Under the pieces are notes generated by a model. It did no database searches and had not been told where the DNA came from. It saw only the letters and a list, made by a program, of their open reading frames with translations. A program made the translations under genes and the position numbers. This document shows positions 19,727 to 37,895 of a stretch of DNA of 64,000 bases, one piece after another (the first letter of the stretch is position 1; each line of letters opens with the position of its first letter). This stretch comes from Bacteroides luhongzhouii (GTDB lineage: Bacteria; Bacteroidota; Bacteroidia; Bacteroidales; Bacteroidaceae), in NCBI RefSeq assembly GCF_009193295.2, contig NZ_CP059973.1, forward strand, positions 1,860,001-1,924,000, read 5' to 3'.

Positions 19727-20752
19727 TTACATTTTTGATTTTTTTATACTACTCTCCCTAATCTGCAAATGTGTCGGAATGGTCACCTGCTTGATTGTCT
19801 TATCTCCTTTTATCTGATCTATTAATAGTTGGCAGGCAGTTTCTCCCATTTTATAAGTCTGATGTGACACTGCAGATAATTTCGGCTCTACATAATTAGC
19901 GTGCTGCTCGTCCGTATACCCGATGATTGCCACATCATCCGGAATCCGGAGGCCATGTTTTTTGATAACTTCCATTGCTGCGAAAGCCAATGTGTCATTC
20001 ATGGCAAGAATAGCATCCGGAGGCTGTGGAAGTGACAGTAAAGTTTCTGTGGCAATCTTGCCTTCCTCATAATCGATCTTCCGGCAGACTACCACCTCTT
20101 TTTCGATGGGAATACGATTCTCACGCAAGGCTTCCAGATAGCCATGTTTTCTTCTCTTTACAATATCCAGATGATTGGCTCCTCCGATAAAAGCTACCCG
20201 TTTACTTCCATTATCCAGAAGATGCTGTGTAGCCATCTGTGCGGATTGGGCCCCATCTGCTATCACCGATGAAAATTGGTCAGTCAGGCAAACACGGTCG
20301 AACAGGATCAGTGGCATATTGATGTCTTTCAAGGCGGAGATGTGGGAGAAATCGGTTGTTTCTTGAGACAGACAGGCGATGATACCTTCTACGCGCATAT
20401 TGACCAGATTCTCAATATTTCTTTTTTCGTGCTCGTAAGACTCATGCGAGGTCGTGATAATCACGAAATATCCGTTGGCAATAGCCATATTCTCTATTCC
20501 ATTCAGAATCGATGCAAAGAAATGAGTGACAATATCCGGGACGATCACTCCGATGATACGTGGCGCATTTTTCCGCAGGCTCATGGCAAAAGGGTTGGGG
20601 CGGTAGTTCATTTCTTTGGCCAGTGCCTTTGCTCTGGCGCAAAGTTCACGGCTGATTTCCGGACTATCTTTTAGTGCCCTGGATACAGTAGGAATCGACA
20701 CCCCCAATGCTTGGGCGAGATCTTTGAGTGAAGTATGTTTCCGGTTTTCCAT
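19727..20752 (-). CDS. LacI-family transcriptional regulator of the adjacent sugar-oxidation operon
   Basis: A 341-residue LacI-family regulator. Residues 7-55 form the helix-turn-helix and hinge (SLKDLAQALGVSIPTVSRALKDSP ending MNYRPNPFA). Residues about 60-330 form the sugar-sensing domain (IIGVIVPDIVTHFFASILNGIE, GIIACLSQ, PDAILAMNDTLAFAAME, AIIGYTDE). It is divergently transcribed from the aldo/keto reductase operon, with a LacI-like palindrome between them (20833-20848), so it most likely represses that operon until its sugar or an intermediate binds. L-galactose or L-fucose metabolites are candidate inducers by inference only. Confidence 0.9.
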   Translation of the reverse strand: MENRKHTSLKDLAQALGVSIPTVSRALKDSPEISRELCARAKALAKEMNYRPNPFAMSLRKNAPRIIGVIVPDIVTHFFASILNGIENMAIANGYFVIITTSHESYEHEKRNIENLVNMRVEGIIACLSQETTDFSHISALKDINMPLILFDRVCLTDQFSSVIADGAQSAQMATQHLLDNGSKRVAFIGGANHLDIVKRRKHGYLEALRENRIPIEKEVVVCRKIDYEEGKIATETLLSLPQPPDAILAMNDTLAFAAMEVIKKHGLRIPDDVAIIGYTDEQHANYVEPKLSAVSHQTYKMGETACQLLIDQIKGDKTIKQVTIPTHLQIRESSIKKSKM

Positions 20753-20832
20753 TTGAAAGTCTGCAACTTAGATTCTTTTTACAAAGAAAGCACATTCCCG
20801 GAAAATTAAAAGCATCTGAAGCAATATTTTTT

Positions 20833-20848
20833 ACGTAAACCGTTACGT
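20833..20848. promoter_or_regulatory. Probable LacI-family operator
   Basis: ACGTAAACCGTTACGT has perfect 6-base arms (ACGTAA/TTACGT) around a 4-base centre and resembles LacI-family operators of the GTAAACGNTTAC type. It lies in the 179-bp region between the divergent LacI gene and the aldo/keto reductase operon. Against a simple roadblock model, it sits about 45 bp upstream of the operon's -7 box. Confidence 0.55.
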
Positions 20849-20892
20849 TGGTTTTTCGACCGCTCTCTGCTGCACTGAAACTATTACTGACC

Positions 20893-20900
20893 TATTTTTG
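20893..20900 (+). promoter_or_regulatory. -7 box of the aldo/keto reductase operon
   Basis: TATTTTTG matches TAnnTTTG and lies 31 bp before the chosen ATG (20932). Because the transcript would begin near 20907, the in-frame upstream start at 20848 is excluded. Confidence 0.55.
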
Positions 20901-20931
20901 CCGCATACAAAATGATTTAAAACCTAAAAGT

Positions 20932-21864
20932 ATGCAATACCATGAAATCGGAAAGACAGGGATGAAAGTATCATCTCTTAGTTTTGGAGCTTCTTCTTTA
21001 GGAGGAGTTTTCCATGATTTGAAAGAAAAAGAAGGCATCCAGGCTGTGTTTACTGCTGTTGAGGCAGGAATGAACTTTATCGATGTGTCTCCTTATTACG
21101 GACATTATAAAGCGGAAACTGTTTTAGGAAAGGCACTCAAAGATCTTCCTCGCGACCGTTATTATCTTTCTACCAAAGTGGGACGTTATGGGAAAGATGG
21201 AGTGAACCTGTGGGATTACTCTGCAAAACGTGCGACAGAAAGTGTGTATGAGAGCATGGAACGTCTGAATATAGATTTTATCGACCTGATTAATGTGCAC
21301 GATGTGGAGTTTGCCGATTTGAATCAGGTTGTAAGTGAAACTCTGCCGGCTTTAGTCGAGCTGCGTGAAAAAGGAGTGGTAGGACACGTTGGAATTACCG
21401 ACTTGCAACTCGAAAACCTGAAATGGGTAATCGACCATTCACCAAGCGGTACGGTTGAATCTGTGCTTAGCTTCTGCCATTATTGCCTGTGTGATGATAA
21501 ATTAGCAGACTTCCTGGACTACTTCGAATCCAAAGAAATCGGCGTGATTAATGCTTCTCCCCTTTCAATGGGGCTGTTGAGTGAACGTGGTGTTCCTGCT
21601 TGGCATCCGGCTCCCAAACCTTTGGTAGAGGCTTGCCGTAAAGCAATGGAACATTGCAAAGCTAAGAATTATCCGATTGAGAAACTGGCTATGCAGTTCT
21701 CCGTCAGCAATCCCCGTATAGCAACGACTTTATTTAGTACGACTAATCCGGAGAATGTGAAAAAGAACATCTCTTTCATCGAAGAACCTATTGACTGGGA
21801 ACTCGTTCGGGAAGTGCAGGAGATCATCGGAGAGCAGAAACGTGTAAGTTGGGCAAACTCATAA
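20932..21864 (+). CDS. Aldo/keto reductase, L-galactose/L-fucose 1-dehydrogenase-like
   Basis: A 310-residue cytoplasmic aldo/keto reductase. It shows the family pattern: NFIDVSPYYG with the catalytic Asp and Tyr, the Lys in STKVGRYG and the His in LINVHDVEF. Several stretches match plant L-galactose dehydrogenase as I recall it: LSFCHY (plant LSYCHY), ASPLSMGLLSERG (plant ASPLAMGLLTEQG), WHPA, and VSETLPAL (plant VSETIPAL). The expected reaction is NAD(P)-dependent oxidation of L-galactose or its 6-deoxy form L-fucose to the lactone. It opens an operon with a lactonase-like amidohydrolase, a FucP-like permease and a zinc dehydrogenase. The frame is open to 20848 but the start at 20932 fits the family and the promoter. 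Confidence 0.88.
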   Translation: MQYHEIGKTGMKVSSLSFGASSLGGVFHDLKEKEGIQAVFTAVEAGMNFIDVSPYYGHYKAETVLGKALKDLPRDRYYLSTKVGRYGKDGVNLWDYSAKRATESVYESMERLNIDFIDLINVHDVEFADLNQVVSETLPALVELREKGVVGHVGITDLQLENLKWVIDHSPSGTVESVLSFCHYCLCDDKLADFLDYFESKEIGVINASPLSMGLLSERGVPAWHPAPKPLVEACRKAMEHCKAKNYPIEKLAMQFSVSNPRIATTLFSTTNPENVKKNISFIEEPIDWELVREVQEIIGEQKRVSWANS

Positions 21865-21879
21865 AACAGAGTCATTCGT

Positions 21880-22803
21880 ATGGACTATACAATTATTGAT
21901 GCACACGCCCATCTGTGGTTACGGCAGGATACTGTTGTGGACGGATTGCCTATCCGGACTTTGGAAAATGGCCGTTCGGAATTTATGGGAGAAATCCGGC
22001 AAATGGTTCCGCCCTTTATGGTAGACGGTGTGAATAGCGCGGAAGTTTTTCTTTCGAATATGGACTATGCGCAAGTGGCTGCGGCTGTTATTACCCAAGA
22101 GTTTATTGACGGTATTCAGAATGATTATCTGTCGGAAGTCGTTTCCCATTATCCCAACCGTTTTTTTGTTTGCGGAATGTGTGAGTTTCGCAAACCTGGA
22201 TTTTTGGAGCAGGCGAAAGAGCTTATTGCCAAAGGTTTTAAGGCTATAAAAATACCTGCCCAACGCTTGTTGTTAAAAGAGGGACGGGTAATGCTGAATA
22301 GTGAAGAAATGATGCAGATGTTTCATCATATGGAAGAACGGAATGTCATGCTCTCCATCGATTTGGCTGACGGAGCAACACAGGTTTCCGAGATGGAAGA
22401 GGTTATTCAGGAATGTCCGAATTTGCGGATAGCGATCGGACACTTCGGAATGGTCACACGTCCGGACTGGAAAAAACAAATCAGCCTGGCACGTCATTCC
22501 AATGTGATGATTGAATCCGGCGGAATCACCTGGCTTTTCAATGATGAGTTTTATCCTTTCAAAGGAGCAGTGAAAGCCATTCGGGAAGCGGCGGATTTAG
22601 TTGGCATGGAGAAACTGATGTGGGGATCGGACTATCCGCGCACCATTACAGCAATCACCTACAAGATGTCATACGATTTTGTGGTGAAGTCTTCCGAGTT
22701 GACGGAAGAGGACAAAAGACTCTTTTTGGGAGAAAATGCCCGGAACTTCTATGGATTTACAGATCTCCCCGTACTTCCTTACATCAAGAACATGTCCGAA
22801 TGA
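21880..22803 (+). CDS. Amidohydrolase family protein, probable sugar-acid lactonase
   Basis: A 307-residue TIM-barrel amidohydrolase of the amidohydrolase-2 group. The metal-site motif DAHAHLW is at the N-terminus, IGHFG is near residue 187, and the conserved WGSDYPR aspartate is near residue 250. This group includes L-fuconolactonase and L-rhamnonolactonase. It starts 15 bp after the aldo/keto reductase, whose product should be a lactone, so hydrolysis of L-galactono- or L-fuconolactone is the best-supported role. That role is inferred from context; decarboxylases of the same superfamily share the motifs. Confidence 0.82.
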   Translation: MDYTIIDAHAHLWLRQDTVVDGLPIRTLENGRSEFMGEIRQMVPPFMVDGVNSAEVFLSNMDYAQVAAAVITQEFIDGIQNDYLSEVVSHYPNRFFVCGMCEFRKPGFLEQAKELIAKGFKAIKIPAQRLLLKEGRVMLNSEEMMQMFHHMEERNVMLSIDLADGATQVSEMEEVIQECPNLRIAIGHFGMVTRPDWKKQISLARHSNVMIESGGITWLFNDEFYPFKGAVKAIREAADLVGMEKLMWGSDYPRTITAITYKMSYDFVVKSSELTEEDKRLFLGENARNFYGFTDLPVLPYIKNMSE

Positions 22804-22841
22804 TGGAGAAAACAACCTTATCGTAAAACTGGATTTATACC

Positions 22842-24134
22842 ATGAAAAAGAATACATATACAATACCTTTAGCGTTAGTTTTCTGCCTTTTCTTTCTGTG
22901 GGCGATAAGCAGCAATCTGCTTCCCACGATGATCCGGCAATTGATGAAGACATGTGAACTGAATACCTTTGAAGCCTCCTTTACCGAGACTGCCTACTGG
23001 TTGGCTTATTTTATTTTCCCAATCCCCATAGCTATGTTTATGAAACGTTACAGCTATAAGGCAGGAATTATTTTCGGATTGGTATTAGCTGCAATCGGAG
23101 GCCTGCTTTTCTTTCCCGCCGCCATTTTAAAAGAATATTGGGCTTACCTCTGTATCTTCTTTATTATTGCTACGGGAATGTGCTTCCTGGAGACAGCTGC
23201 CAATCCGTATGTGACGGTTTTAGGAGCACCCGAAACCGCTCCCCGCCGATTGAACCTGGCGCAGTCTTTCAATGGACTCGGAGCTTTTATCGCTGCCATG
23301 TTTTTGAGTAAGCTCATTCTTAGCGGAACTCATTACACGCGAGATACCCTTCCTGTAGATTATCCGGGAGGCTGGCAGGCCTATATCCAACTGGAAACGG
23401 ATGCAATGAAACTTCCTTATCTGATATTGGCTATACTGTTGATTGGCATAGCTGTCATCTTCGTCTTTTCAAAATTGCCGAAGATTGGGGACGAAGGAGA
23501 AGCGGCTTCTTCCGGTAAAACGATTTCTTCGGGTAAAACGAAAGACGGCAGCCGGAAAGAGAAACTGATAGACTTCAGTGTATTGAGGCACTCACACTTG
23601 CGGTGGGGAGTGATCGCGCAATTCTTCTATAACGGCGGACAGACGGCGATAAACAGTCTGTTCCTGGTTTACTGTTGTGCTTATGCCGGATTGCCGGAAG
23701 ATACAGCGACTACCTTCTTCGGATTGTATATGCTCGCATTTCTTCTGGGGCGTTGGATCGGTACCGGATTGATGGTGAAATTCCGTCCACAGGATATGCT
23801 GCTGGTTTACGCCTTGATGAATATTCTTTTGTGCGGGGTAGTGATGATATGGGGAGGTATGATCGGGCTATACGCGATGTTGGCCATCTCTTTCTTTATG
23901 TCTATTATGTATCCTACGCAGTTCTCATTGGCGTTAAAAGGACTGGGGAATCAGACAAAGAGCGGTTCGGCATTTCTGGTAATGGCTATTGTCGGCAATG
24001 CCTGCCTGCCACAGTTGACGGCTTATTTCATGCATGCCAATGAGCATATCTATTATATGGCCTATTGTGTACCGATGATTTGCTTTGTCTTCTGTGCATA
24101 TTATGGCTGGAAAGGTTATAAAGTAATCGATTAA
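22842..24134 (+). CDS. FucP-like sugar:proton symporter (L-fucose/L-galactose-type MFS)
   Basis: A 430-residue permease with about 12 transmembrane segments. It aligns well with E. coli FucP as recalled: FFLWAI, PIPIAMFMKRYSYKAGII, FLETAANPYVTVLG, RLNLAQSFNGLGA. Glu117 in LETAANP corresponds to E. coli Glu135, which is needed for fucose transport. The other key acid, E. coli Asp46 (NLNDILLP), is replaced by Pro28 (SNLLPTM). Proton coupling or substrate choice may therefore differ from FucP. Because L-fucose is 6-deoxy-L-galactose, L-galactose is a reasonable substrate in this operon. It is the third gene, 38 bp after the amidohydrolase. Confidence 0.88.
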   Translation: MKKNTYTIPLALVFCLFFLWAISSNLLPTMIRQLMKTCELNTFEASFTETAYWLAYFIFPIPIAMFMKRYSYKAGIIFGLVLAAIGGLLFFPAAILKEYWAYLCIFFIIATGMCFLETAANPYVTVLGAPETAPRRLNLAQSFNGLGAFIAAMFLSKLILSGTHYTRDTLPVDYPGGWQAYIQLETDAMKLPYLILAILLIGIAVIFVFSKLPKIGDEGEAASSGKTISSGKTKDGSRKEKLIDFSVLRHSHLRWGVIAQFFYNGGQTAINSLFLVYCCAYAGLPEDTATTFFGLYMLAFLLGRWIGTGLMVKFRPQDMLLVYALMNILLCGVVMIWGGMIGLYAMLAISFFMSIMYPTQFSLALKGLGNQTKSGSAFLVMAIVGNACLPQLTAYFMHANEHIYYMAYCVPMICFVFCAYYGWKGYKVID

Positions 24135-24159
24135 TAAACTTATTTATCAAACATATCCA

Positions 24160-25176
24160 ATGAAAGCAGTTCAAATTGTCAATCCCTCCGAAATGAAGGT
24201 GGTTGAACTGGAAAAACCGACCGTTGGTGCCGGTGAAGTATTAGTAAGAATCAAGTATGTTGGTTTCTGTGGCTCTGACCTGAATACCTTTTTGGGACGT
24301 AACCCGATGGTGAAGTTACCGGTAATCCCCGGGCATGAGGTAGGAGCAGTGATTGAGGAAATTGGTCCGGATGTTCCGGCTGGCTTCGAAAAAGGGATGA
24401 ACGTGACATTGAATCCATATACCAATTGTGGTAAATGTGCTTCCTGTCGTAATGGTCGTGTCAATGCCTGTGAGCATAATGAAACGTTAGGGGTACAGCG
24501 CAATGGAGTGATGTGCGAATATGCAGTTTTACCTTGGACGAAGATTATTCCGGCTGGTAATATCTCTCCTCGCGATTGTGCGTTGATTGAACCGATGAGT
24601 GTCGGATTCCATGCGGTATCTCGTGCGCAGGTAATCGACAATGAGTTTGTGATGGTTATTGGCTGCGGCATGATTGGTATCGGTGCCATTGTGCGTGCTG
24701 CTTTGAGAGGTGCAACGGTCATTGCTGTCGACTTGGATGACGAGAAACTGGAACTGGCGAGAAAGGTCGGTGCTTCTCATGTGATTAACTCCAAGACAGA
24801 AAATGTACACGAACGGATGCAACAGATAACGGAGGGATTCGGTGCCGATGTGGTGATTGAAGCTGTCGGCAGCCCTGTCACTTACGTGATGGCAGTGGAT
24901 GAAGTCGGTTTTACAGGACGTGTGGTTTGCATTGGTTATGCCAAGAGCGAAGTAGCTTTCCAAACGAAATATTTCGTTCAGAAAGAACTGGATATCCGTG
25001 GTTCCAGAAATGCGTTACCTGCCGATTTCCGTGCAGTTATCAATTATATGAAAGAAGGGAACTGTCCGGTAGAAGAACTGATTTCGAAGATTGCCAAACC
25101 GGAAGGAGCTTTGGAAGCTATGCAGGAATGGACGGCTAATCCGGGAAAGGTGTTCCGCATACTGGTTGAGTTCTGA
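24160..25176 (+). CDS. Zinc-dependent alcohol dehydrogenase, L-galactonate 5-dehydrogenase-like
   Basis: A 338-residue medium-chain dehydrogenase. It shows catalytic zinc ligands in GFCGSD and GHE, the structural-zinc cysteine cluster NCGKCASCRNGRVNAC, and a nucleotide-binding GCGMIGIGAI with an acidic residue after it (VDLDD), indicating NAD+ preference. The segment IRGSRNALPADFRAVINYM parallels GSRNATPEDF in E. coli L-galactonate dehydrogenase (LgoD/YjjN, recalled). Expected reaction: L-galactonate to D-tagaturonate, or the equivalent oxidation of L-fuconate. It ends the operon, 57 bp before a terminator. General polyol or threonine dehydrogenase activity is the main alternative. Confidence 0.85.
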   Translation: MKAVQIVNPSEMKVVELEKPTVGAGEVLVRIKYVGFCGSDLNTFLGRNPMVKLPVIPGHEVGAVIEEIGPDVPAGFEKGMNVTLNPYTNCGKCASCRNGRVNACEHNETLGVQRNGVMCEYAVLPWTKIIPAGNISPRDCALIEPMSVGFHAVSRAQVIDNEFVMVIGCGMIGIGAIVRAALRGATVIAVDLDDEKLELARKVGASHVINSKTENVHERMQQITEGFGADVVIEAVGSPVTYVMAVDEVGFTGRVVCIGYAKSEVAFQTKYFVQKELDIRGSRNALPADFRAVINYMKEGNCPVEELISKIAKPEGALEAMQEWTANPGKVFRILVEF

Positions 25177-25465: not shown

Positions 25466-27070
25466 ATGATTATGCTGAAAACAAAAATCAACACTATTTT
25501 ACTGTGTACTCTTTTTACATTGTTCTTCCCGCTATCAGCCGGAGCACAATACCGTAATCCTATTCTTTATGCTGACGTACCCGATATGTCGGTGTGTCGC
25601 GCAGGTGATTACTTTTACATGGTTTCCACTACTATGCACCTGATGCCGGGAGCGCCTATCATGCGTTCGCCGGACATGAAACATTGGGAAACTATCAGCT
25701 ACGTATTTCCTCGCATTGACGATGGCCCCCGTTATGATCTGCTCGAAGGCACTGCTTACGGGCAAGGACAATGGGCATCATCTATCCGCTATCATGACGG
25801 TAAATTCTATGTATGGTTTACAGCCAATGGCGCGCCCGGACGTGGGTTTGTCTATACTGCGACAGATCCGGCCGGTCCCTGGAAACTTCTTTCGCGTCCC
25901 CCGCATTTTCATGACGGTTCGCTTCTGTTTGATGATGACGGGCGGGTGTATCTCTTTCACAGTACAGGACAGCTTACGGAGTTGAAACCCGATTTGACCG
26001 ATGTACTTCCCGGTGGCATCAATCAGCAAATATTTGAACGGGATGCTGACGAACAAGGTCTGTTGGAAGGTAGTTCCGTCATCAAGCATAATGGGAAATA
26101 TTATTTGCTGATGATTTCTATGGATTGGAGTATTCCCGGCCGTCTGCGTCGTGAAGTGTGCTATCGTGCCGATAAGATAACCGGACCTTACGAAAAGCGT
26201 GTCATTCTTGAAACGGAGTTTGACGGGCATGGCGGTGTTGGTCAGGGATGCATCGTAGACGGGAAAAACGGAGAATGGTACGGACTCATTTTCCAAGATC
26301 GTGGTGGCGTAGGGCGTGTGCCGTGTCTCATGCCTTGTACATGGACGGAAGATGGTTGGCCTATGCTGGGAGACAAGGACGGGCACATTCCGAATGATAC
26401 CACTTTATCGTATATGTCAATGGATGGTATCTGCGGTTCGGATGATTTTTCCGCTTCCGGGCTTTCCCTCTATTGGCAGTGGAATCATAACCCCGTCGAT
26501 CAGGCATGGAGTCTTACCGACCGTCCCGGATTTCTGCGTTTGAAAACCTCTCGTGTGGTAGATAACCTGTTTGTTGCTCCCAATACGTTGACTCAACGTA
26601 TGGTAGGACCGAAATGCATGGGCACTGTCAGTCTCTCTCTGGGGGGGATGAAAGATGGTGACCGTGCAGGATTATCGGCTTTTAATGGTGACAGCGGTGT
26701 GCTTACGATTGAAAAGAACGGAAATAAACTGTCTCTTGTGATGAGTGAACAGAAAAGTGTGTTTGAGAAAACGAAGCGTGCCATTAGCCGTGTGGATATG
26801 ACCGAACAAGCCCGTATACCTCTTAACAAAGAGCTTGTCTACTTGCGTGTGGAAGGTGACTTTACCAATGGACGGGATGAGGCTCGTTTTTCTTATAGTC
26901 TTGATGGGAAAACATGGCTACCTGTCGGTCTGCCTATTAAGATGAAATTTGACTACACCCGTATGTTCATGGGCAGTAAGTTTGCCATATTTAACTATGC
27001 TACACGTTCCGTGGGCGGTTATGTGGATGTGGACTCTTTTGATTATTCGTTCTGTGATGCGTCAATGTAA
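25466..27070 (+). CDS. GH43 glycoside hydrolase (subfamily 12-like, probable alpha-L-arabinofuranosidase)
   Basis: A 534-residue exported enzyme (signal peptide ending SAGA). The five-bladed propeller carries the three GH43 acids: Asp40 in ILYADVPDMSV, Asp150 in FHDGSLLFDDDG and Glu201 in LLEGSSVIKHNG. Residues about 340-534 form a beta-sandwich C-terminal domain (FSYSLDGKTWLPVG). Sequence style fits GH43 subfamily 12, which in xylan PULs removes arabinose side chains; beta-xylosidase activity is the alternative. It has its own four-site promoter and a 72-nt leader, and the next gene also has a promoter, so it may be expressed alone. The ATG at 25472 is a possible alternative start. Confidence 0.88.
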   Translation: MIMLKTKINTILLCTLFTLFFPLSAGAQYRNPILYADVPDMSVCRAGDYFYMVSTTMHLMPGAPIMRSPDMKHWETISYVFPRIDDGPRYDLLEGTAYGQGQWASSIRYHDGKFYVWFTANGAPGRGFVYTATDPAGPWKLLSRPPHFHDGSLLFDDDGRVYLFHSTGQLTELKPDLTDVLPGGINQQIFERDADEQGLLEGSSVIKHNGKYYLLMISMDWSIPGRLRREVCYRADKITGPYEKRVILETEFDGHGGVGQGCIVDGKNGEWYGLIFQDRGGVGRVPCLMPCTWTEDGWPMLGDKDGHIPNDTTLSYMSMDGICGSDDFSASGLSLYWQWNHNPVDQAWSLTDRPGFLRLKTSRVVDNLFVAPNTLTQRMVGPKCMGTVSLSLGGMKDGDRAGLSAFNGDSGVLTIEKNGNKLSLVMSEQKSVFEKTKRAISRVDMTEQARIPLNKELVYLRVEGDFTNGRDEARFSYSLDGKTWLPVGLPIKMKFDYTRMFMGSKFAIFNYATRSVGGYVDVDSFDYSFCDASM

Positions 27071-27131
27071 CACACAAATATGTATTTGTAACCAATGAAA
27101 CATTGTTTTATTAGGAAATAGGCTATTTTTG
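27065..27131 (+). promoter_or_regulatory. HTCS-type operator pair and promoter of the GH3 gene
   Basis: ATGTAACAC (27065-27073) and TTGTAACCA (27086-27094) are 21 bp apart, and the -7 box TATTTTTG (27124-27131) follows after 29 bp. The first site overlaps the stop codon of the preceding GH43 gene (27068-27070). The sites are weaker than those at 25278. Confidence 0.6.
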
Positions 27132-27166
27132 TTTCCAAATTAATCATAACTAATAAGTATAATATT

Positions 27167-29752
27167 ATGAAAAGAGGTTGGATACCGATTATGGGTGTTT
27201 GTTTGGTGTTATCGTTTTCGGCATGTAAGCAATTGCTGCCTTACCAGGACACTTCTTTAACGGCGGAACAACGGGCGGAGGATTTGTTGCCCCGGTTGAC
27301 TTTGGAAGAAAAAGTATCAATCATGCAAAATGCGTCACCTGCTATCCCCCGACTGGGAATTAAAGAATATGAGTGGTGGAATGAGGCGTTGCACGGTGTG
27401 GGACGTGCCGGATTGGCTACTGTTTTTCCCCAGTCTATCGGTATGGGAGCTTCTTTTAATGATTCATTATTATATGAAGTGTTCAATGCCACTTCCGATG
27501 AGGCTCGCGTAAAATCGCGTATTTTCGGTGAAAGCGGCGTGCTGAAACGCTATCAGGGATTAACATTCTGGACACCGAATGTCAATATATTCCGTGACCC
27601 TCGTTGGGGACGTGGTCAAGAAACATATGGGGAAGACCCTTATTTGACAGGACAAATGGGAATGGCTGTAGTCCGTGGCTTGCAAGGACCGGAAGATGCC
27701 GGATATGATAAGCTGCACGCATGTGCCAAGCACTTTGCCGTTCATTCAGGACCGGAGTGGAACCGGCATAGTTTTGATGCGGAGAATATAAATCCCCGGG
27801 ATTTATGGGAAACCTATCTGCCTGCTTTTAAAGATTTGGTACAGAAAGCGCATGTAAAGGAAGTGATGTGTGCCTACAATCGTTTTGAGGGAGAGCCTTG
27901 TTGTGGCAGTAATCGCCTGTTGATGCAAATATTGCGGGATGAATGGGGATACAAAGGCATTGTAGTCTCTGACTGTGGAGCGATTTCCGATTTCTATAGA
28001 CCGGGAACGCATGGGACTCACCCGGACAAGGAACACGCTTCGGCCGCTGCTGTGCGGGCAGGCACAGACCTTGAATGTGGAAGTGAATATGCTTCACTGG
28101 CGGATGCTGTAAAAGCCGGTTTGATTGACGAAAAAGAAATAGATATTTCATTGAAACGTTTGTTGACAGCACGTTTTGAACTGGGAGAAATGGACGACCA
28201 ACCGGCTTGGTCGGAAATTCCAGCCTCTGTGTTGAATAGTAAGGAACATCAGGCATTGGCTTTGCGTATGGCCCGTGAATCATTGGTGCTCTTGCAGAAT
28301 AAAAACAACATCCTGCCTCTGAATACCCATCTGAAAGTAGCCGTTATGGGACCTAATGCCAATGACTCCGTGATGCAGTGGGGAAATTATAACGGAATTC
28401 CGGCACATACGGTTACCTTATTGGAAGCTGTCCGTGCCAAACTACCGGAAGGACAAATCATATACGAACCGGGTTGTGACCGTGTGGACGGAAAGACACT
28501 CCAAAGCCTGTTTGATGAATGTAGCATAAATGGTAAACCCGGTTTCTTGGCAGAATATTGGAATAATCGTGATCGTGAAGGGGAAGTGGCTGCTACTGAC
28601 CAGATTTCCACTCCGTTCCATTTTGCAACAACAGGGGCTACTACATTTGCGCCCGGTGTGGAAATTACTAATTTCTCGGCTCGTTATGAATCTGTCTTTC
28701 GTCCTTCGCAGTCCGGTGATGTTGCTTTCCGTTTCCAACTGGATGGTGAAGTGACTCTTATTATAAATGGTGAGCAAGTGGCCCAGAAAATATATGTTAA
28801 GAATCCGACGAACCTCTATACGTTACAGGCGAAAGCTGGAAAAGAGTATCATATCGAGATTTTATTCAAACAACGGAATGAAAGGGCTACACTTGATTTT
28901 GATCTGGGCAAAGAGGTCGGGATCGACTTGAACCTTGCAGTGAAGAAAGTAATGGATGCTGATGTGATTCTTTTTGCAGGTGGAATTTCTCCAAGTCTGG
29001 AAGGTGAGGAAATGCCGGTAGAAGTTCCCGGATTTAAGGGTGGTGACCGTACGGATATTGAACTTCCGGACGTTCAACGTGATTTGTTGAAAGCTTTGAA
29101 GAAGGCTGGTAAAAAGGTTGTCTTTATCAATTATTCCGGTTCAGCTATCGGACTAGTGCCCGAAACGACTACTTGTGAAGCGATTCTGCAGGCATGGTAT
29201 CCGGGACAGGCGGGTGGTACAGCTATCGTTGATGCTCTTTGGGGAGAGTATAATCCCGGTGGACGCCTGCCGGTCACTTTCTATAAGGATGTGAATCAAT
29301 TGCCGGACTTTGAAGACTATTCCATGAAGGGGCGTACCTATCGATATATGCAACAGCAACCACTTTTCCCATTCGGTCATGGGTTGAGTTATACTACGTT
29401 TACTTATGGTGAGGCTGATCTAAGTAAGAATACGATTGGAAATGGAGAAACTGTTATGTTGACTGTTCCGGTGAGTAATGTAGGGCAGCGAGACGGGGAT
29501 GAAGTGGTTCAGGTTTATCTGCGATCTCCGGCAGATAAAGACGGTCCCCGTTATACCTTGCGTGCTTTCAAGCGTGTCCACATTCCTGCCGGGCAAACTA
29601 AATCAGTAACCATTCCTCTTACACATGAGAGTTTCGAATGGTTTGATGAGGCGACTAATACCATGCATCCGGTGACAGGTACTTATGAATTACTGTATGG
29701 AGGAACTTCTGATAGAAATAAGTTGAAAACGATTGTAATGAACGTACAGTAA
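27167..29752 (+). CDS. GH3 glycoside hydrolase with PA14 domain, lipoprotein (probable xylan beta-xylosidase)
   Basis: An 861-residue lipoprotein (LSFSAC). The N-terminal barrel has EWWNEALHGVGRAG, common in GH3 beta-xylosidases, and the nucleophile Asp269 in VVSDCGAISD. The second domain (about residues 365-700) is interrupted by a PA14-type beta-barrel at about 450-590 (FLAEYWNNRDREG to LDFDLGKEV), often linked to glycan binding or chain-length selection. A fibronectin-III-like domain ends the protein. It probably releases xylose from the non-reducing end of xylo-oligosaccharides in the periplasm or at the cell surface. It has a promoter at 27124-27131 and is followed by hairpins from 29824, suggesting a single-gene transcript. 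Confidence 0.92.
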   Translation: MKRGWIPIMGVCLVLSFSACKQLLPYQDTSLTAEQRAEDLLPRLTLEEKVSIMQNASPAIPRLGIKEYEWWNEALHGVGRAGLATVFPQSIGMGASFNDSLLYEVFNATSDEARVKSRIFGESGVLKRYQGLTFWTPNVNIFRDPRWGRGQETYGEDPYLTGQMGMAVVRGLQGPEDAGYDKLHACAKHFAVHSGPEWNRHSFDAENINPRDLWETYLPAFKDLVQKAHVKEVMCAYNRFEGEPCCGSNRLLMQILRDEWGYKGIVVSDCGAISDFYRPGTHGTHPDKEHASAAAVRAGTDLECGSEYASLADAVKAGLIDEKEIDISLKRLLTARFELGEMDDQPAWSEIPASVLNSKEHQALALRMARESLVLLQNKNNILPLNTHLKVAVMGPNANDSVMQWGNYNGIPAHTVTLLEAVRAKLPEGQIIYEPGCDRVDGKTLQSLFDECSINGKPGFLAEYWNNRDREGEVAATDQISTPFHFATTGATTFAPGVEITNFSARYESVFRPSQSGDVAFRFQLDGEVTLIINGEQVAQKIYVKNPTNLYTLQAKAGKEYHIEILFKQRNERATLDFDLGKEVGIDLNLAVKKVMDADVILFAGGISPSLEGEEMPVEVPGFKGGDRTDIELPDVQRDLLKALKKAGKKVVFINYSGSAIGLVPETTTCEAILQAWYPGQAGGTAIVDALWGEYNPGGRLPVTFYKDVNQLPDFEDYSMKGRTYRYMQQQPLFPFGHGLSYTTFTYGEADLSKNTIGNGETVMLTVPVSNVGQRDGDEVVQVYLRSPADKDGPRYTLRAFKRVHIPAGQTKSVTIPLTHESFEWFDEATNTMHPVTGTYELLYGGTSDRNKLKTIVMNVQ

Positions 29753-29823
29753 TACCGCTTTGGAATTTTGTTTATTTTTACAGATAGACAATCCGGATTT
29801 ATTTATTGAATGAATAAAGAAAG

Positions 29824-29857
29824 AACGACCTTGTTCCTTTAAAAGGAACGGGTCGTT
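29824..29857 (+). terminator. Hairpin downstream of GH3 (first of a tandem pair)
   Basis: AACGACC (29824-29830) pairs with GGTCGTT (29851-29857) around a nested stem GTTCC/GGAAC, followed by TCTTTT. It lies 71 bp after the GH3 stop codon. The inner part, GTTCCTTTAAAAGGAAC, is itself nearly palindromic. Confidence 0.65.
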
Positions 29858-29910
29858 TCTTTTAAACCAAGCCCCCGTTTCTTTTAAACCAACGGGGGCT
29901 TTCTTTTAAA
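29854..29910 (+). repeat. 22-bp-period repeat containing a second G+C-rich hairpin
   Basis: TTTCTTTTAAA begins at 29856, 29878 and 29900, exactly 22 bp apart, and CGTTTCTTTTAAACCAA is repeated exactly at 29854 and 29876. The spacers are arranged so that AGCCCCCGTT (29870-29879) pairs with AACGGGGGCT (29891-29900), a 10-bp stem followed by TTCTTTT. It would work as a second terminator, but the repeat structure looks more like a mobile or expandable intergenic element. From 29911 to 30026 I see only A+T-rich sequence and no gene. Confidence 0.7.
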
Positions 29911-30026
29911 GGAAAATGAATATTTGCTAATGCTTGATATTCAGTCTTTTACATGATGGAGATAAAAGTGCTGAAATAATAGGTAATGTAGTCATTTATC
30001 TTACCATTTTTCTGTTTTGGGGCTTT

Positions 30027-30135
30027 TTGTTACATCAGAAAAGAATCATGTTACATGTCTGTGATAAATGTAACCTGTATATAGATGCCTGTATCATGAT
30101 TGTACATATATGATAAAACCGAATCGATACATTTG
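30027..30135 (+). promoter_or_regulatory. HTCS-type operator array and promoter of the GH43-GH31-GH97-GH43 operon
   Basis: Four sites are visible: TTGTTACAT (30027-30035) and ATGTTACAT (30048-30056) in reverse orientation, then ATGTAACCT (30068-30076) and CTGTATCAT (30089-30097). Spacings are 21, 20 and 21 bp. The -7 box TACATTTG (30128-30135) follows after exactly 30 bp, as at the 25278 array. Because ATGTWACAT is nearly palindromic, orientation may matter little. Confidence 0.72.
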
Positions 30136-30183
30136 CAAACACTACTATGGAACAGAAAATTATAGAAAATAAAAAGTGATAAT

Positions 30184-31911
30184 ATGAGAACATTAAGATT
30201 GATTTTGTCGGGCTGGCAATCCGTGGGGCTTGTCGTATTTATTATGTTGTTTTTTAATATGGAGGTGAGTGGTAAGGGTAAAATAACGAAAAATGCTCCT
30301 GTCTTTACGCAATTTATTTATCAGGGGGAGGATGCTATTTATCAAAACAATCCTTTAAAGCCGGGTGAGTTCTATAATCCTATTTTGCAGGGTTGCTATC
30401 CCGATCCGAGTATAACACGGAAAGGGAATGATTATTATTTGGTGTGCTCATCTTTTGCCATGTTTCCCGGGGTACCTATTTTCCATTCTAATGATCTGGT
30501 CAACTGGAAACAAATCGGTCATGTGCTGGACAGAACGTCACAATTAAAGGTTGAAGATTGTGGTATTAGTGCAGGTGTATATGCTCCTGCTATAAGATAT
30601 AATCCCAATAATGATACGTTTTATATGATAACCACTCAATTTTCAGGTGGCTTTGGAAATATGGTGGTAAAGACAAAGAATCCGGAGAATGGCTGGAGTG
30701 ATCCGATCAAACTACAATTTGAAGGCATTGATCCTTCTCTTTTCTTTGATGATAATGGCAAGGCATACGTGGTACATAATGATGCTCCTGCTAAAGCAAA
30801 CGAGCGTTACTCGGGACACCGTGTCATAAAAATATGGGATTATGATGTGGAGAATGATAAAGTGGTTCCGGGAACGGACCGGATCATAGTAAACGGTGGC
30901 GTCAATATAGAAGAAAAGCCGATATGGATTGAAGCTCCTCATATCTATAAGAAAGATGGACGTTATTATTTAATGTGTGCCGAAGGAGGAACCGGAGGCT
31001 GGCATAGCGAAGTCATTTTTGTAAGTGATCATCCGAAAGGACCTTATCTCCCGGCAAATAATAATCCTATTTTAACTCAACGTTATTTTCCTGCAAACCG
31101 GGCGGATAAAGTAGACTGGGCCGGTCATGCAGACTTAGTGGAGGGACCCGATGGAAAATATTATGGTGTATTTTTAGGAATACGCCCCAATGAGAAGAAC
31201 AGAGTGAATACCGGACGCGAAACTTTTATTCTTCCGGTGGACTGGAGCGGAACATTTCCCGTTTTCGAGAATGGGCTTATCCCTATGAAACCTACATTGA
31301 AGATGCCTTCGGGAGTTGAGAACCAAACAGGGAAAAACGGTTATTTGCCTAGTGGCAACTTTGTCTTTAAGGATGATTTCTCCGATAAGACATTAGACTT
31401 TAGATGGATCGGTCTTAGAGGTCCTCGTGAAGATTTCGTTGATATGACCGATAAAGGGTTGCGGATCATCCCTTTTACCTCAAATATCAATGAAGTGAAA
31501 CCTACTTCTACTTTGTTCTACCGTCAGCAGCATAATCAATTTACAGCGGCAGCGACCATGGAGTACAAACCGAAAAACGAGAAAGATTTTGCCGGTATAA
31601 CATGTTATCAAAATGAAAGATATCACTATGTTTTCGGTATCACTAAAAAGGGAAAAGACTATTATCTGATACTGCAAAGAACTGAAAAAGGTCAAACAAG
31701 TGTTCTAGGAGAGGTAAAGATAGAGGTAGAGAGACCTGTGACACTGCAAGTAACAGCCAATGGAGATCATTATCGTTTTAATTATTCGACTGATGGAAAG
31801 AGTTTTATAAATTTAGGAGGAACCGTTTCCGGTGATATTCTTTCTACAAACGTAGCAGAGGGATTTACAGGAGCAATGATTGGCTTGTATGCAACATCAG
31901 CTGGTAATTAA
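30184..31911 (+). CDS. GH43 glycoside hydrolase with C-terminal beta-sandwich (probable beta-xylosidase/arabinofuranosidase)
   Basis: A 575-residue exported enzyme with a hydrophobic N-terminus (about residues 13-25). Catalytic acids are Asp74 in CYPDPSI, Asp183 in GIDPSLFF and Glu250 in WIEAPHIY. From about residue 375 a concanavalin-like domain of the GH43 C-terminal type follows (FKDDFSDKTLDFRWIGLRGP). It is a paralogue of the GH43 gene at 37946, sharing phrases such as PGVPIFHS(N/K)DLVNWKQIGHVL. Sequence style suggests GH43 subfamily 1; xylosidase or arabinofuranosidase activity on xylo-oligosaccharides is likely. It is the first gene of a four-gene operon. Confidence 0.88.
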   Translation: MRTLRLILSGWQSVGLVVFIMLFFNMEVSGKGKITKNAPVFTQFIYQGEDAIYQNNPLKPGEFYNPILQGCYPDPSITRKGNDYYLVCSSFAMFPGVPIFHSNDLVNWKQIGHVLDRTSQLKVEDCGISAGVYAPAIRYNPNNDTFYMITTQFSGGFGNMVVKTKNPENGWSDPIKLQFEGIDPSLFFDDNGKAYVVHNDAPAKANERYSGHRVIKIWDYDVENDKVVPGTDRIIVNGGVNIEEKPIWIEAPHIYKKDGRYYLMCAEGGTGGWHSEVIFVSDHPKGPYLPANNNPILTQRYFPANRADKVDWAGHADLVEGPDGKYYGVFLGIRPNEKNRVNTGRETFILPVDWSGTFPVFENGLIPMKPTLKMPSGVENQTGKNGYLPSGNFVFKDDFSDKTLDFRWIGLRGPREDFVDMTDKGLRIIPFTSNINEVKPTSTLFYRQQHNQFTAAATMEYKPKNEKDFAGITCYQNERYHYVFGITKKGKDYYLILQRTEKGQTSVLGEVKIEVERPVTLQVTANGDHYRFNYSTDGKSFINLGGTVSGDILSTNVAEGFTGAMIGLYATSAGN

Positions 31912-31936
31912 TTAGAAACCTTGTCATTCTATAATT

Positions 31937-34381
31937 ATGAAAATACATCATCTATTTTGGGGCATATGTTTATGCTTCAACACAAATATTTTATTCGCAC
32001 AAAACTATCAGAAAACATCGTCCGGTATCAAGACTACTGTGAATGCAGTGGATATAGAAGTACAATTCTTTGCGCCTGCTGTGGCGAGAGTAATAAAGTC
32101 TCCGGAAGGTGTTGCCTATGAAAAACAGAGTCTTTCTGTAATTGCCAAACCTGAAAAGGTGAGTTTCAAAGCTGACATACAAGATAATAAGATTGTATTG
32201 AACACCAGCGAACTAAGTGTCAGTGTGGACGCCGGGACGGGAATTGTTTCTTATTTCTCAAAGGATGGCAAGTCGTTATTGGTAGAGAAATCCGGTATGC
32301 AGTTTATCGATTTCGATGATGCAGGGACAAAAACTTATCAGGTTTATCAACCTTTTGTATTAGATAAGGAGGAAGCCATCTATGGTTTGGGGCAATTGCA
32401 AAATGGAAAGATGATTCAGCGGAACATGACTAAAAATCTGATACAGGGAAATGTTGAAGATGTGTCACCTTTCTTCCAGTCTACTAAAGGATATGGTGTG
32501 TTTTGGGATAACTATTCGCCGACTCTTTTTACAGATAACGAAACTGAAACATCTTTCCGCTCTGAAGTAGGTGACTGTGTGGACTATTATTTCATGTATG
32601 GGAAGAATGCCGATGGTGTAATAGCACAGGTACGCAGCTTGACCGGACAAGCACCGATGTTTCCTTTATGGACTTATGGTTACTGGCAAAGTAAAGAAAG
32701 ATATAAGAGCCAGGAGGAAGTGGTAGACGTTGTTCGTAAATATCGTGAATTGGGTATTCCCTTGGATGGCATTATTCAGGACTGGCAATATTGGGGGCAT
32801 AACTATTTGTGGAATGCGATGGATTTTCAGAATCCGGCTTTCAATAATCCTCAAAAGATGATTGAGGATGTCCATGCGATGAACGCACACATGGCTATAT
32901 CTATCTGGTCGTCATTCGGACCGATGACCAAACCTTATAGAGAATTGGACAAAAAAGGGATGTTGTTTAGCTTCACTACCTGGCCGCAATCGGGATTGGA
33001 GTCATGGCCCCCCAACATGGAATATCCTTCCGGTGTAAGGGTGTATGATGCTTACAATCCCGAAGCGCGTGATATTTATTGGAAATATCTGAATGATGGA
33101 ATTTTCAAGTTGGGAATGGATGCCTGGTGGATGGACTCTACCGAACCCGATCATTTGGACTGGAAGCCGGAGGATATGGATACCAAAACCTATTTGGGCT
33201 CGTTCCGTAAGGTGCGCAATGCTTATCCGTTGATGACTGTCGGAGGGGTTTACGACCATCAGCGTGCAGTGACTTCGGACAAACGTGTGTTTATTTTAAC
33301 CCGTTCCGGATTCTTGGGGCAGCAACGTTATGGTGCAAATGTATGGAGTGGTGATGTCGCTTCCACCTGGGAGAGTTTTAGAAATCAGATTCCTGCCGGA
33401 TTAAACTTTTCTTTGTGTGGTATGCCTCACTGGAATAGTGATATTGGTGGCTTTTTTGCAGGACATTATAATAAAAGCTGGAATGATGATAGTGCTTCGA
33501 AAAATCCATTGTATCAGGAGCTTTATGTGCGTTGGTTGCAGTTTGGAACGTTCAATCCGATGATGCGTTCGCACGGGACGGATGTTTATAGGGAAATCTA
33601 TAAGTTCGGAAAGAAGGGTGAGCCTGTATATGATGCTATCGAGAAGATGATAGGTTTACGTTACTCTCTGTTGCCTTATATTTATTCTACTTCTAGGGAG
33701 GTGAGCAATCGCCAATCGAGTTTTATGCGCGCTTTGATGATGGATTTTGTAGATGACAGAAAGGTGTGGGATATCAATGACGAATATATGTTTGGAAAAT
33801 CGCTCCTTGTGGCTCCGATTGCTCATGCACAATATACACCGGAAGCTGTGGTAAAAGTCTCCGAAGAAGAAGGATGGAACAGAGATGGGGCGAAAAAAAC
33901 AAAAACTGACGCTGTTGTGGATTTCATGGAAACGAAATCTACCAAAATATACTTACCGGCAGGAACGCTATGGTATGACTTCTGGACGAACGAGAAACAC
34001 GAAGGCGGAAAGGAAATTACCAAAGAGACTACACTGGATGTTATTCCATTGTATGTAAAAGCGGGTAGTATTATTCCTGTCGGTCCACAAGTTCAGTATG
34101 CAACTGAAAAACCGTGGGATCATCTTGAATTGAAGGTGTATGCGGGTGCGAATGGAAACTTCATTTTATATGAAGATGAATTTGATAATTACAATTACGA
34201 AAAAGGAGCTTATACGGAAATTCCAATCTCTTGGAATAATGCATCTCGTAAATTGACGATAGGGGCAAGAAAAGGTGCGTATGAGGGAATGTTGAAGAAC
34301 CGTAAGTTTACTGTAACTCTTCAGGACGGGACTCAAAAAAACGTCGATTATAATGGGAAGGCAATTTCTGTAAAGTTTTGA
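31937..34381 (+). CDS. GH31 alpha-glycosidase (probable alpha-xylosidase/alpha-glucosidase)
   Basis: An 814-residue exported enzyme (signal peptide ending NILFAQ). Residues about 20-215 form the N-terminal beta-sandwich and the barrel follows (IIQDWQYWGHNYLWN). The nucleophile is Asp400 in WWMDSTEPDH and the probable acid/base is Asp473 in WSGDVASTW. The last 180 residues are beta-sheet domains (YLPAGTLWYDFWT). GH31 enzymes release alpha-linked glucose, xylose or galactose; one sits at the same relative position in the large B. ovatus xylan PUL, from memory. It starts 25 bp after the GH43 gene. Confidence 0.9.
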   Translation: MKIHHLFWGICLCFNTNILFAQNYQKTSSGIKTTVNAVDIEVQFFAPAVARVIKSPEGVAYEKQSLSVIAKPEKVSFKADIQDNKIVLNTSELSVSVDAGTGIVSYFSKDGKSLLVEKSGMQFIDFDDAGTKTYQVYQPFVLDKEEAIYGLGQLQNGKMIQRNMTKNLIQGNVEDVSPFFQSTKGYGVFWDNYSPTLFTDNETETSFRSEVGDCVDYYFMYGKNADGVIAQVRSLTGQAPMFPLWTYGYWQSKERYKSQEEVVDVVRKYRELGIPLDGIIQDWQYWGHNYLWNAMDFQNPAFNNPQKMIEDVHAMNAHMAISIWSSFGPMTKPYRELDKKGMLFSFTTWPQSGLESWPPNMEYPSGVRVYDAYNPEARDIYWKYLNDGIFKLGMDAWWMDSTEPDHLDWKPEDMDTKTYLGSFRKVRNAYPLMTVGGVYDHQRAVTSDKRVFILTRSGFLGQQRYGANVWSGDVASTWESFRNQIPAGLNFSLCGMPHWNSDIGGFFAGHYNKSWNDDSASKNPLYQELYVRWLQFGTFNPMMRSHGTDVYREIYKFGKKGEPVYDAIEKMIGLRYSLLPYIYSTSREVSNRQSSFMRALMMDFVDDRKVWDINDEYMFGKSLLVAPIAHAQYTPEAVVKVSEEEGWNRDGAKKTKTDAVVDFMETKSTKIYLPAGTLWYDFWTNEKHEGGKEITKETTLDVIPLYVKAGSIIPVGPQVQYATEKPWDHLELKVYAGANGNFILYEDEFDNYNYEKGAYTEIPISWNNASRKLTIGARKGAYEGMLKNRKFTVTLQDGTQKNVDYNGKAISVKF

Positions 34382-34434
34382 TTGTAATAGAATGTGTGAT
34401 TATGTCAGTAGAAAAGAATCTAAAAAGTAGAAAT

Positions 34435-36378: not shown

Positions 36379-36397
36379 CTGTTTAAACTGATAGAAT

Positions 36398-37729
36398 ATG
36401 AAAAACTTGAATTTTTGGGGTGTATTACTCCTGTTGGCAATGACTACCGCTACTTTAGGAGTGGCACAAAATCCTATTATCCAGACAAAATATACCGCTG
36501 ATCCGGCTCCGATGGTATATAATGATACCGTTTTCCTTTATACAACTCATGATGAGGATGATGCCGAAGGATTCAAAATGTTGGACTGGTTACTTTATAC
36601 TTCCACCGATATGGTCAATTGGACCGATCATGGAGCGGTCGCTTCTCTGAAGAGTTTTGATTGGGTGAAACGTGATAACGGTGCCTGGGCAGAACAAGTC
36701 ATCGAACGTAATGGCAAATTTTATATGTATTGTCCGATTCACGGTAATGGTATTGGCGTATTGGTTTCCGACTCTCCTTACGGTCCTTTTAAAGACCCAT
36801 TGAACAAACCGTTGGTTTGGCAGAAGGAGCATTGGTACGACATTGACCCGACCGTATTTATTGATGATGACGGACAAGCGTATATGTATTGGGGCAATCC
36901 GAATGTTTATTATGTGAAACTGAATGAGGATATGATTTCATATTCGGGGGAAATTGTACAAGTAGAAAATAAACCGGAACATTATCAGGAAGGTCCGTGG
37001 GTGTATAAACGGAACGGGCATTATTACATGGCTTTCGCTTCAACTTGTTGCCCGGAAGGGATTGGCTATGCCATGAGCGACAAAGCTACCGGACCATGGA
37101 GTACAAAAGGATATATTATGCGTCCAACAGAGCGGAGTAGAGGAAATCATCCTGGAATTATCGATTATAAAGGTAGCTCTTATGTATTTGGCCTAAATTA
37201 TGATTTGCTTCATTTGGAAACATTGGATCATAAGGAACGTCGTTCCACGTCTGTTGCAAAAATGCATTATAATCCGGATGGAACTATTCAGGAAGTTCCT
37301 TATTGGCAGGAGACGAAACTGGAACAGATTGAAAACTTTAATCCTTACCGTAGAGTGGAAGCTGAAACGATGGCTTGGGGATATGGTCTTAAAGCTGAAA
37401 ATCATAAGAATGGTGGTTTGTATATAACCGATATCGATGATAATGAATATCTGTGTGTGCGTGGTGTCGACTTTGGCAAGAAGGGAGCAAAAAAATTCAG
37501 TGTAAGCGCAGCTTGTGTTGAAAAAGGCGGAATGATAGAAATTCGTCTGGACAGCACAGAAGGTCCGGTAATAGGCAGTGTCAGTATATCACCGACAGGA
37601 GGACTGGATATATATAAACAGATGTCATGCCGGATAAAGAATGCAAAGGGTGTACATGATCTTTATTTCTGCTTTAAAGGAGAGAAAGGAAACAAACTTT
37701 TCAATCTGGATTATTGGGGATTTGAATAG
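36398..37729 (+). CDS. GH43 with C-terminal CBM6 (subfamily 29-like arabinofuranosidase)
   Basis: A 443-residue exported enzyme (signal peptide ending GVAQ). GH43 acids are Asp35 in YTADPAPMV, Asp150 in YDIDPTVFIDDDG and Glu198 in YQEGPWVYKRNG. Residues about 313-443 form a CBM6-like module (RRVEAETMAWGYG to DYWGFE). This two-domain layout is typical of GH43 subfamily 29 arabinofuranosidases acting on arabinoxylan. It closely resembles the gene at 56358, so the PUL carries two versions, one in each operon. It ends the GH43-GH31-GH97-GH43 transcript. Confidence 0.88.
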   Translation: MKNLNFWGVLLLLAMTTATLGVAQNPIIQTKYTADPAPMVYNDTVFLYTTHDEDDAEGFKMLDWLLYTSTDMVNWTDHGAVASLKSFDWVKRDNGAWAEQVIERNGKFYMYCPIHGNGIGVLVSDSPYGPFKDPLNKPLVWQKEHWYDIDPTVFIDDDGQAYMYWGNPNVYYVKLNEDMISYSGEIVQVENKPEHYQEGPWVYKRNGHYYMAFASTCCPEGIGYAMSDKATGPWSTKGYIMRPTERSRGNHPGIIDYKGSSYVFGLNYDLLHLETLDHKERRSTSVAKMHYNPDGTIQEVPYWQETKLEQIENFNPYRRVEAETMAWGYGLKAENHKNGGLYITDIDDNEYLCVRGVDFGKKGAKKFSVSAACVEKGGMIEIRLDSTEGPVIGSVSISPTGGLDIYKQMSCRIKNAKGVHDLYFCFKGEKGNKLFNLDYWGFE

Positions 37730-37808
37730 CTTTTTATAAAAAAAAGTAAGATTGTAATATATTGATAATCAGTGTGATTGTTTGGGCGCGCTACAAGAGG
37801 AAAGATAG

Positions 37809-37895
37809 ATGTAACATTGAAAATGAAGATGTTATTTGGGAAAAGAAGCCCGTAACATAATTATGTCTGTAGTTTTATGAGCTGGCATATCTTTG
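37809..37895 (+). promoter_or_regulatory. HTCS-type operator sites and promoter of the main SusCD operon
   Basis: Three sites are visible: ATGTAACAT (37809-37817), ATGTTATTT (37829-37837) and CCGTAACAT (37850-37858), with 20- and 21-bp spacing. The -7 box TATCTTTG (37888-37895) follows after 29 bp. This promoter should drive the long transcript from the GH43 gene through both SusC/SusD pairs. Transcription from about 37902 also decides the start codon of the next gene. Confidence 0.65.

Follow-up and report, generated by a model that had tools for sequence, protein, structure and literature searches.

A predicted L-galactose catabolic operon beside a xylan utilization locus in Bacteroides luhongzhouii and its association with L-galactose-releasing hydrolases in the Bacteroidaceae

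Introduction

What becomes of the L-galactose (L-Gal) that Bacteroides enzymes free from complex xylan? The question is raised by a 64,000-nucleotide stretch of the Bacteroides luhongzhouii genome (assembly GCF_009193295.2, contig NZ_CP059973.1, positions 1,860,001 to 1,924,000; hereafter the window), in which a four-gene operon with a divergent lacI-type gene (19727-25176) adjoins a polysaccharide utilization locus (PUL) for xylan that ends in a gene of glycoside hydrolase (GH) family 95. In the 2015 work on xylan, such a GH95 enzyme frees L-galactose, and the later use of the sugar by the cell is not mentioned in the available parts of the paper (PMC4491172). The adjoining operon is the obvious answer, as it very probably imports L-galactose and breaks it down without phosphorylation, judging from orthology and gene context. 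Within the open-licence literature, we know of no published record linking such an operon to a xylan PUL through L-galactose. The evidence brought by the present analysis consists of orthology, gene order, operator conservation, homologues of downstream enzymes and co-occurrence. What is new, and worth following, is the cross-genome coupling of the operon to L-galactose-releasing hydrolases.

The operon and its predicted pathway

The operon genes lie closely spaced on one strand, in the order aldo/keto reductase (AKR), amidohydrolase, FucP-type permease and zinc dehydrogenase according to Pfam and NCBIfam scans. Together with the divergent lacI gene they form five open, intact reading frames, and the gene set given by the first-pass annotation of this stretch stands as to families and place.

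The first gene (20932..21864, plus strand, 310 amino acids) is predicted to encode an L-galactose dehydrogenase. Its best match in the PDB, at 551 bits, is 7lh6, deposited as L-galactose dehydrogenase, and the next four entries bear the same name. Residues 3-311 of the query align with 7ezi, an L-galactose dehydrogenase that we take to be the plant enzyme, with the blocks SFCHY/SYCHY, ASPLSMGLL/ASPLAMGLL and WHPAPK/WHPAPK in register; the resemblance to the plant dehydrogenase noticed at first reading is thus real. The mechanical reading frame begins at TTG 20848 and overlaps the final base of the predicted LacI operator with its own first base; the alignment favours ATG 20932 as the start. 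A dehydrogenase with 92.9% identity was also seen in a plasmid collection, on a record of 44.7 kb that bears the label Bacteroides finegoldii (NZ_OY725933.1:40165-41100) and may be either a plasmid or a piece of an assembly. The second gene (21880..22803, plus strand, 307 amino acids) encodes a predicted L-galactono-lactonase of the Amidohydro_2 family (PF04909), with 4i6k as its sole and weak match in the PDB. It is followed by a symporter of the major facilitator superfamily, the predicted L-galactose permease (22842..24134, plus strand, 430 amino acids), and by the zinc dehydrogenase (24160..25176, plus strand, 338 amino acids; ADH_N and ADH_zinc_N), which is predicted to convert L-galactonate into D-tagaturonate. 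The closest solved chain of the latter is RspB (4ilk), and no NCBIfam model reaches its cut-off among the 25 matches listed. Its earlier description as an LgoD-like zinc dehydrogenase therefore holds for the family and was not confirmed by name for LgoD.

Orthologues of the four genes stand in the same order in a genome (G293) presumed to be that of Phocaeicola vulgatus ATCC 8482. The AKR gene of G293 is found 338 kb into a chromosome of 5,163,189 bases, directly followed by the counterparts of the window's amidohydrolase, permease and dehydrogenase genes. Gene for gene, identity with the window reaches 81-82% for the AKR, 79% for the amidohydrolase, and 81% for both the permease and the zinc dehydrogenase. 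According to PMC12632266, BVU_0219 and BVU_0222 are reported to function as L-galactose dehydrogenase and L-galactonate dehydrogenase, and D-tagaturonate is an intermediate of the P. vulgatus L-galactose pathway (there citing Hobbs et al. 2014). No BVU locus tag appears among the best 120 matches listed per protein database search. Bvu0220, for its part, was reportedly shown by Hobbs et al. in 2014 to be the lactonase of the pathway. By the order and strand of its genes, their orthology to the G293 counterparts and the presence of tagaturonate-processing enzymes in the genome, the window operon appears as a further example of the Bvu0219-0222 type, with a pathway already on record. The first-pass annotation treated the route as a candidate proposal and missed its publication in 2014 for Bacteroides vulgatus.

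The proposed route would begin with import of L-galactose by the FucP-type symporter, a transport specificity that is itself predicted. The AKR would oxidize C1 to yield L-galactono-1,5-lactone, the amidohydrolase would open the lactone to L-galactonate, and the zinc dehydrogenase would oxidize C5 to give D-tagaturonate. Then, a tagaturonate reductase and an altronate dehydratase encoded elsewhere in the genome would produce 2-keto-3-deoxygluconate, to be handled by a kinase and an aldolase. The enzyme reactions in this scheme, reported for P. vulgatus, and the likewise reported release of L-Gal from corn xylan by GH95 would apply here by analogy.

Tagaturonate enzymes and the choice of sugar

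The window genome encodes, away from the operon, UxaB (655 bits against the tagaturonate reductase model, cut-off 359), a UxaA homologue with the Pfam domain GD_AH_C, a kinase that resembles keto-deoxy-sugar kinases without reaching the cut-off, an aldolase of the KDPG type that scores above its cut-off, and a glucuronate isomerase. Related loci were fetched around the best 80 of 592 AKR relatives, some of the contigs ending early. By tblastn, the amidohydrolase accompanies the AKR in 77 of these loci, the zinc dehydrogenase in 75, the permease in 40 and the LacI regulator in 34. In five (L068, L070, L079, L086, L087), homologues of UxaB and UxaA extend the operon on the same strand, with a GDSL gene in between in L068, L079 and L087; the assignment was made by Pfam for L068 and L086 and by phmmer to these two for the others. 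Tagaturonate and altronate are the substrates of UxaB and UxaA, which do not use a 6-deoxy acid. Their collinearity with the operon is thus independent evidence that favours the tagaturonate route and disfavours a 6-deoxy substrate, and it adds to the G293 orthology and the best PDB match of the AKR in support of the L-galactose route proposed at first pass. Two points weigh against this reading: the permease was detected in only half of the loci, and the UxaA homologue of the window genome falls below the cut-off of galactarate dehydratase, its sole listed NCBIfam model.

The same survey revealed proteins of about 540 amino acids without a clear Pfam family, collinear with the operon in nine of the 80 loci (L020 at 12982-14604, L018, L027, L028, L030, L032, L050, L078 and L080). 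They were grouped by phmmer from three seeds, which may not form one family; for the 541-residue protein after the zinc dehydrogenase gene in L020, no Pfam or PDB match was found.

L-fucose was the main alternative named at first pass. In an operon for this sugar, both dehydrogenases and the lactonase would work on the 6-deoxy compound and the permease would import it. The two sugars differ at C6 only, the operon permease passes the cut-off of the L-fucose symporter model TIGR00885 (328 bits, cut-off 280), and GH95 and GH29 are known mostly as fucosidase families. L-fucose is nevertheless a very unlikely substrate, since a fucose-type locus exists elsewhere in the genome. This locus encodes a FucP that scores 702 bits against the symporter model and shares 31% identity with the operon permease, together with FucI (1226 bits), a class II aldolase and a kinase whose match to the rhamnulokinase model stays under the cut-off. 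A second FucI-like locus is also present. Moreover, the Pfam scan found among the operon genes no L-fuconate dehydratase-type gene and no downstream gene for 2-keto-3-deoxyfuconate, which counts against L-fucose as do the collinear UxaB-UxaA homologues.

Still less probable is an operon for a different L-sugar, L-glucose for example, or one with two functions like that of Luteolibacter LG18. In PMC12632266, LguA of Luteolibacter falls into one cluster with BVU_0219, and L-glucose and L-gluconate are used by the BVU enzymes, an activity termed very inefficient there. No epimerase family was found among the operon genes in the Pfam scan, and the operon is associated with L-galactosidase-type hydrolases.

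The adjoining xylan locus and its GH95

Upstream of the operon stand glyS and a small FKBP-like gene, and downstream a large carbohydrate locus. Its plus-strand block (25466..57743) comprises, by Pfam scans, GH43, GH3, GH43, GH31, GH97, GH43, GH43, two SusC/D pairs, a BT_3987-like gene, GH10, a GH5/30-type gene, an esterase and GH43. It is followed on the minus strand by a hybrid two-component regulator (57765..61784; Reg_prop, HisKA, HATPase_c, Response_reg, HTH_18) and by the C-terminal part of a predicted GH95 alpha-L-galactosidase (61953..64000). The GH95 gene extends 379 bases beyond the window, and the whole gene (1921953-1924379 on the chromosome) encodes 808 amino acids that align end to end with 4ufc at 1866 bits. 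The entry 4ufc is BACOVA_03438, for which Thr370, Asn372, Asn374 and Glu501 are named as active-site residues (PMC4491172, in part); the window enzyme carries all four. BACOVA_03438 was reported to free exclusively L-Gal from corn xylan in the same paper, and a second GH95 enzyme, BT1010, releases L-Gal from rhamnogalacturonan II according to part of a review (PMC10154630).

By its gene families, the neighbouring locus is an orthologue of the Bacteroides ovatus PUL-XylL, and by end-to-end alignment its GH95 is the BACOVA_03438 orthologue. The first-pass annotation had rightly placed a GH95 gene at the end of the next locus and linked it to alpha-L-galactosidase, and had missed that it is orthologous to the characterized enzyme itself. 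This GH95 would be one likely source of L-galactose, other GH95 enzymes with the same threonine motif being encoded as well, and we infer a metabolic coupling of GH95 and operon in the window strain. In the available sections of PMC4491172, there is no mention of galactonate, of a permease or of an adjoining L-galactose catabolic operon. Two further threonine-motif GH95 genes were observed in other loci of the genome, at 2119536 and 4010079, with the motifs YTTN and YTCN, respectively.

Co-occurrence of the operon with GH95

The association of operon and GH95, a check proposed at first pass, was examined over 349 genomes of the family, with odds ratios (OR), a Cochran-Mantel-Haenszel (CMH) test within genera and 20,000 within-genus permutations. 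The AKR is found in 158 genomes, a GH95 of the threonine motif YTxNxNxxMNYW in 185, one of the histidine motif YHxNxNxxMNYW in 77 and FucI in 115; reversed-pattern controls for both motifs gave 0 in every row viewed. The statistics pool the sub-types YTIN, YTTN, YTCN and YTHN in the threonine class.

The AKR clearly tracks the threonine-motif GH95, present in 140 of 158 genomes with the AKR versus 45 of 191 without it (OR 25.2). The link persists within genera (CMH OR 12.8), and no permutation reaches the observed overlap. For three genera (g1, g5 and g13; 80 genomes listed as 97-100% complete), the CMH OR is 16.8, again with 0/20,000. Exceptions are the 18 AKR-positive genomes without the motif and the 45 motif-bearing genomes without the AKR. 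With the histidine-motif GH95, no such link appears (OR 0.24 overall, CMH OR 0.91). FucI is associated with the histidine motif (OR 3.05, CMH OR 2.8), more weakly than the AKR is with the threonine motif and only weakly in g1, g5 and g13 (1350/20,000), and it does not track the threonine motif (OR 0.95, CMH OR 1.47). The fucosidase-type partner expected of an L-fucose pathway does not show in these data, as the AKR has no within-genus link to the histidine-motif GH95 and the adjoining GH95 is the BACOVA_03438 orthologue. L-fucose as the main substrate was discarded on this pattern together with the separate fucose locus and the collinear UxaB-UxaA homologues.

Other observations temper the link to L-galactose. 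Within genera, the AKR and FucI are mildly associated (CMH OR 2.33, with OR 1.11 overall), and in genus g13 alone the link of the AKR to the threonine motif is not significant (p 0.22). XacAfc95 and Blon_2355 carry the GH95 threonine and yet are fucosidases (PMC10063614, in part). As such enzymes exist, threonine at this position is not decisive, and a clean threonine/histidine code of GH95 specificity was rejected as too strong. Rather than forming a pure L-galactosidase class, the threonine-motif enzymes may be chiefly plant-glycan GH95s, and the co-occurrence may partly mirror plant-fibre versus mucin lifestyles.

Physical linkage to GH95, GH29 and other hydrolases

Inspection by eye placed GH95 no more than 60 kb from the AKR in at least eight genomes (the window genome G000, G014, G127, G131, G197, G211, G257 and G313), at distances of 4.3 to 55.4 kb; this lower bound is small and counts against the L-galactose reading. 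In G313, from another genus of the family, one same-strand run with gaps below 140 bases (L093:3723-17347) includes a threonine-motif GH95 (YTININAQMNYW), GH31, a fasciclin protein, AKR, amidohydrolase, zinc dehydrogenase, an unknown gene, GH43 and GH51. This gene set fits L-Gal-Xyl-Ara side chains, and the run looks as if assembled for one complete side chain.

Among the 80 related loci, six have a GH31 and seven a GH29 collinear with the operon; within the fetched stretches, GH29 occurs in 17 loci and GH95 in one. The nearest solved relative of the GH29 protein beside the G293 operon (L104:4289-5932) is BpGH29, an exo-alpha-L-galactosidase, with 268-271 bits versus 192 for the next. This GH29 protein was searched at E <= 1e-100 in 80 genomes with the AKR and 80 without it, hand-picked and not random, and was found in 56 and 11 of them, respectively. 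In 23 of the 52 genomes with both positions listed, no more than 20 kb separate it from the AKR, when about 0.9 would be expected at random placement, a rough figure that assumes genomes of 3.3 Mb. In the window genome, no such GH29 was found at this threshold. The GH29 genes at L104:4289-5932 and L025:7956-9593, both adjoining L-galactose operons, may be misread as fucosidases.

These data leave an even chance for a broader picture, in which the operon would be a fixed Bacteroidaceae core paired interchangeably with L-galactose-releasing hydrolases, namely threonine-motif GH95s in xylan loci and a GH29 clade that Pfam names alpha-L-fucosidase and that adjoins the operon even in G293, the presumed P. 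vulgatus reference. On that picture, the operon could guide the re-annotation of many "fucosidases" as alpha-L-galactosidases, and L-galactose would rank among the common nutrients that plant fibre supplies in the gut, one so far overlooked. The survey offers a practical handle for telling L-galactosidases among the fucosidase families GH95 and GH29.

Regulation of the operon and its position beside the PUL

The divergent gene (19727..20752, minus strand, 341 amino acids; Pfam LacI and Peripla_BP_3) encodes the predicted repressor of the operon. Of 34 lacI-AKR intergenic regions, taken from the window and 33 loci, 33 contain the palindrome ACGYAANNNNTTRCGT at 91-115 bases from their AKR end, and 200 rounds of base shuffling gave a mean of 0.0 regions with a site. 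The predicted LacI operator of the window, ACGTAAACCGTTACGT at 20833..20848, is its sole site of this type with up to two mismatches, when 2.25 are expected by chance. Genome-wide, one other exact site exists at 3824015; as it lies within a gene with a Gly_transporter match and a reversed-pattern control gives as many sites, it was taken as chance. LacI bound at 20833-20848 would repress the operon until L-galactose or a pathway intermediate appears. A regulon shared by operon and PUL appears unlikely, the PUL part of the window being devoid of an operator. As the window holds no further site like the conserved operator, the operon most likely responds to its own LacI and the PUL to its hybrid regulator, and the two loci are probably regulated separately.

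The operon lies next to glyS in seven of the 80 related loci. GH43 or GH3 follows directly downstream in five of them (L008 of B. xylanisolvens, L009, L010, L011 of B. acidifaciens and L017 of B. reticulotermitis). The other two, L012 of B. faecis and L014 of B. finegoldii, show no xylan genes in the approximately 6.7 kb examined downstream, a finding that tells against a necessary bond between the two loci. Thus, the operon can persist at the glyS site without an adjoining xylan locus, which makes the proximity of the two look convenient rather than obligatory. The operon might even handle L-galactose from a source other than the neighbouring PUL, the adjacency being an accident of two insertions near glyS. 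This explanation, possible although rather doubtful, agrees with these two loci, with the separate operator and hybrid regulator and with the two additional threonine-motif GH95 genes of the genome as other potential sources. It is opposed by the release of L-Gal by the PUL-XylL GH95 (PMC4491172, in part) and by the G313 run, which joins GH95, GH31, the L-galactose enzymes, GH43 and GH51. The link between GH95 and L-galactose made at first pass holds up. The view that a complete L-galactose route explains why the loci are neighbours is supported in part, being weakened by the B. faecis and B. finegoldii sites and the probably separate regulators.

Comparison with known systems

The xylan locus resembles the B. 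ovatus PUL-XylL (bacova_03417-50) in its GH43, GH3, GH31, GH97, GH10, GH30/5-type and GH95 genes, SusC/D pairs and hybrid regulator, as far as the available description goes (PMC4491172). The GH98 of B. ovatus (BACOVA_03433) sets the two apart: the region 53089-56352 of the window has no room for it, the esterase gene starting 22 bases after the GH5/30-type gene.

Among hydrolases, BpGH29 of the porphyran PUL (PMC12316285, in part) is the nearest solved relative of both GH29 proteins tested beside operons in other genomes, which have clearly diverged from it.

In Luteolibacter LG18 (lguABCDEF), the dehydrogenase clusters with BVU_0219 and the route joins D-tagaturonate, whereas the system differs by its dual L-glucose/L-galactose pathway with an extra epimerase; most Lgu enzymes are called distantly related to enzymes of the same activity (PMC12632266, in part).

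The closest known system remains Bvu0219-0222 of P. vulgatus, as represented by G293, which is alike in the four families, their order and 79-82% identity. An operator-like palindrome (ACGCAAAGGTTTACGT) also stands upstream in G293. The G293 operon has an AraC-type gene and a divergently oriented GH29 gene as its neighbours and no LacI gene beside it, whereas the window operon has its own LacI and adjoins a GH95-bearing xylan PUL.

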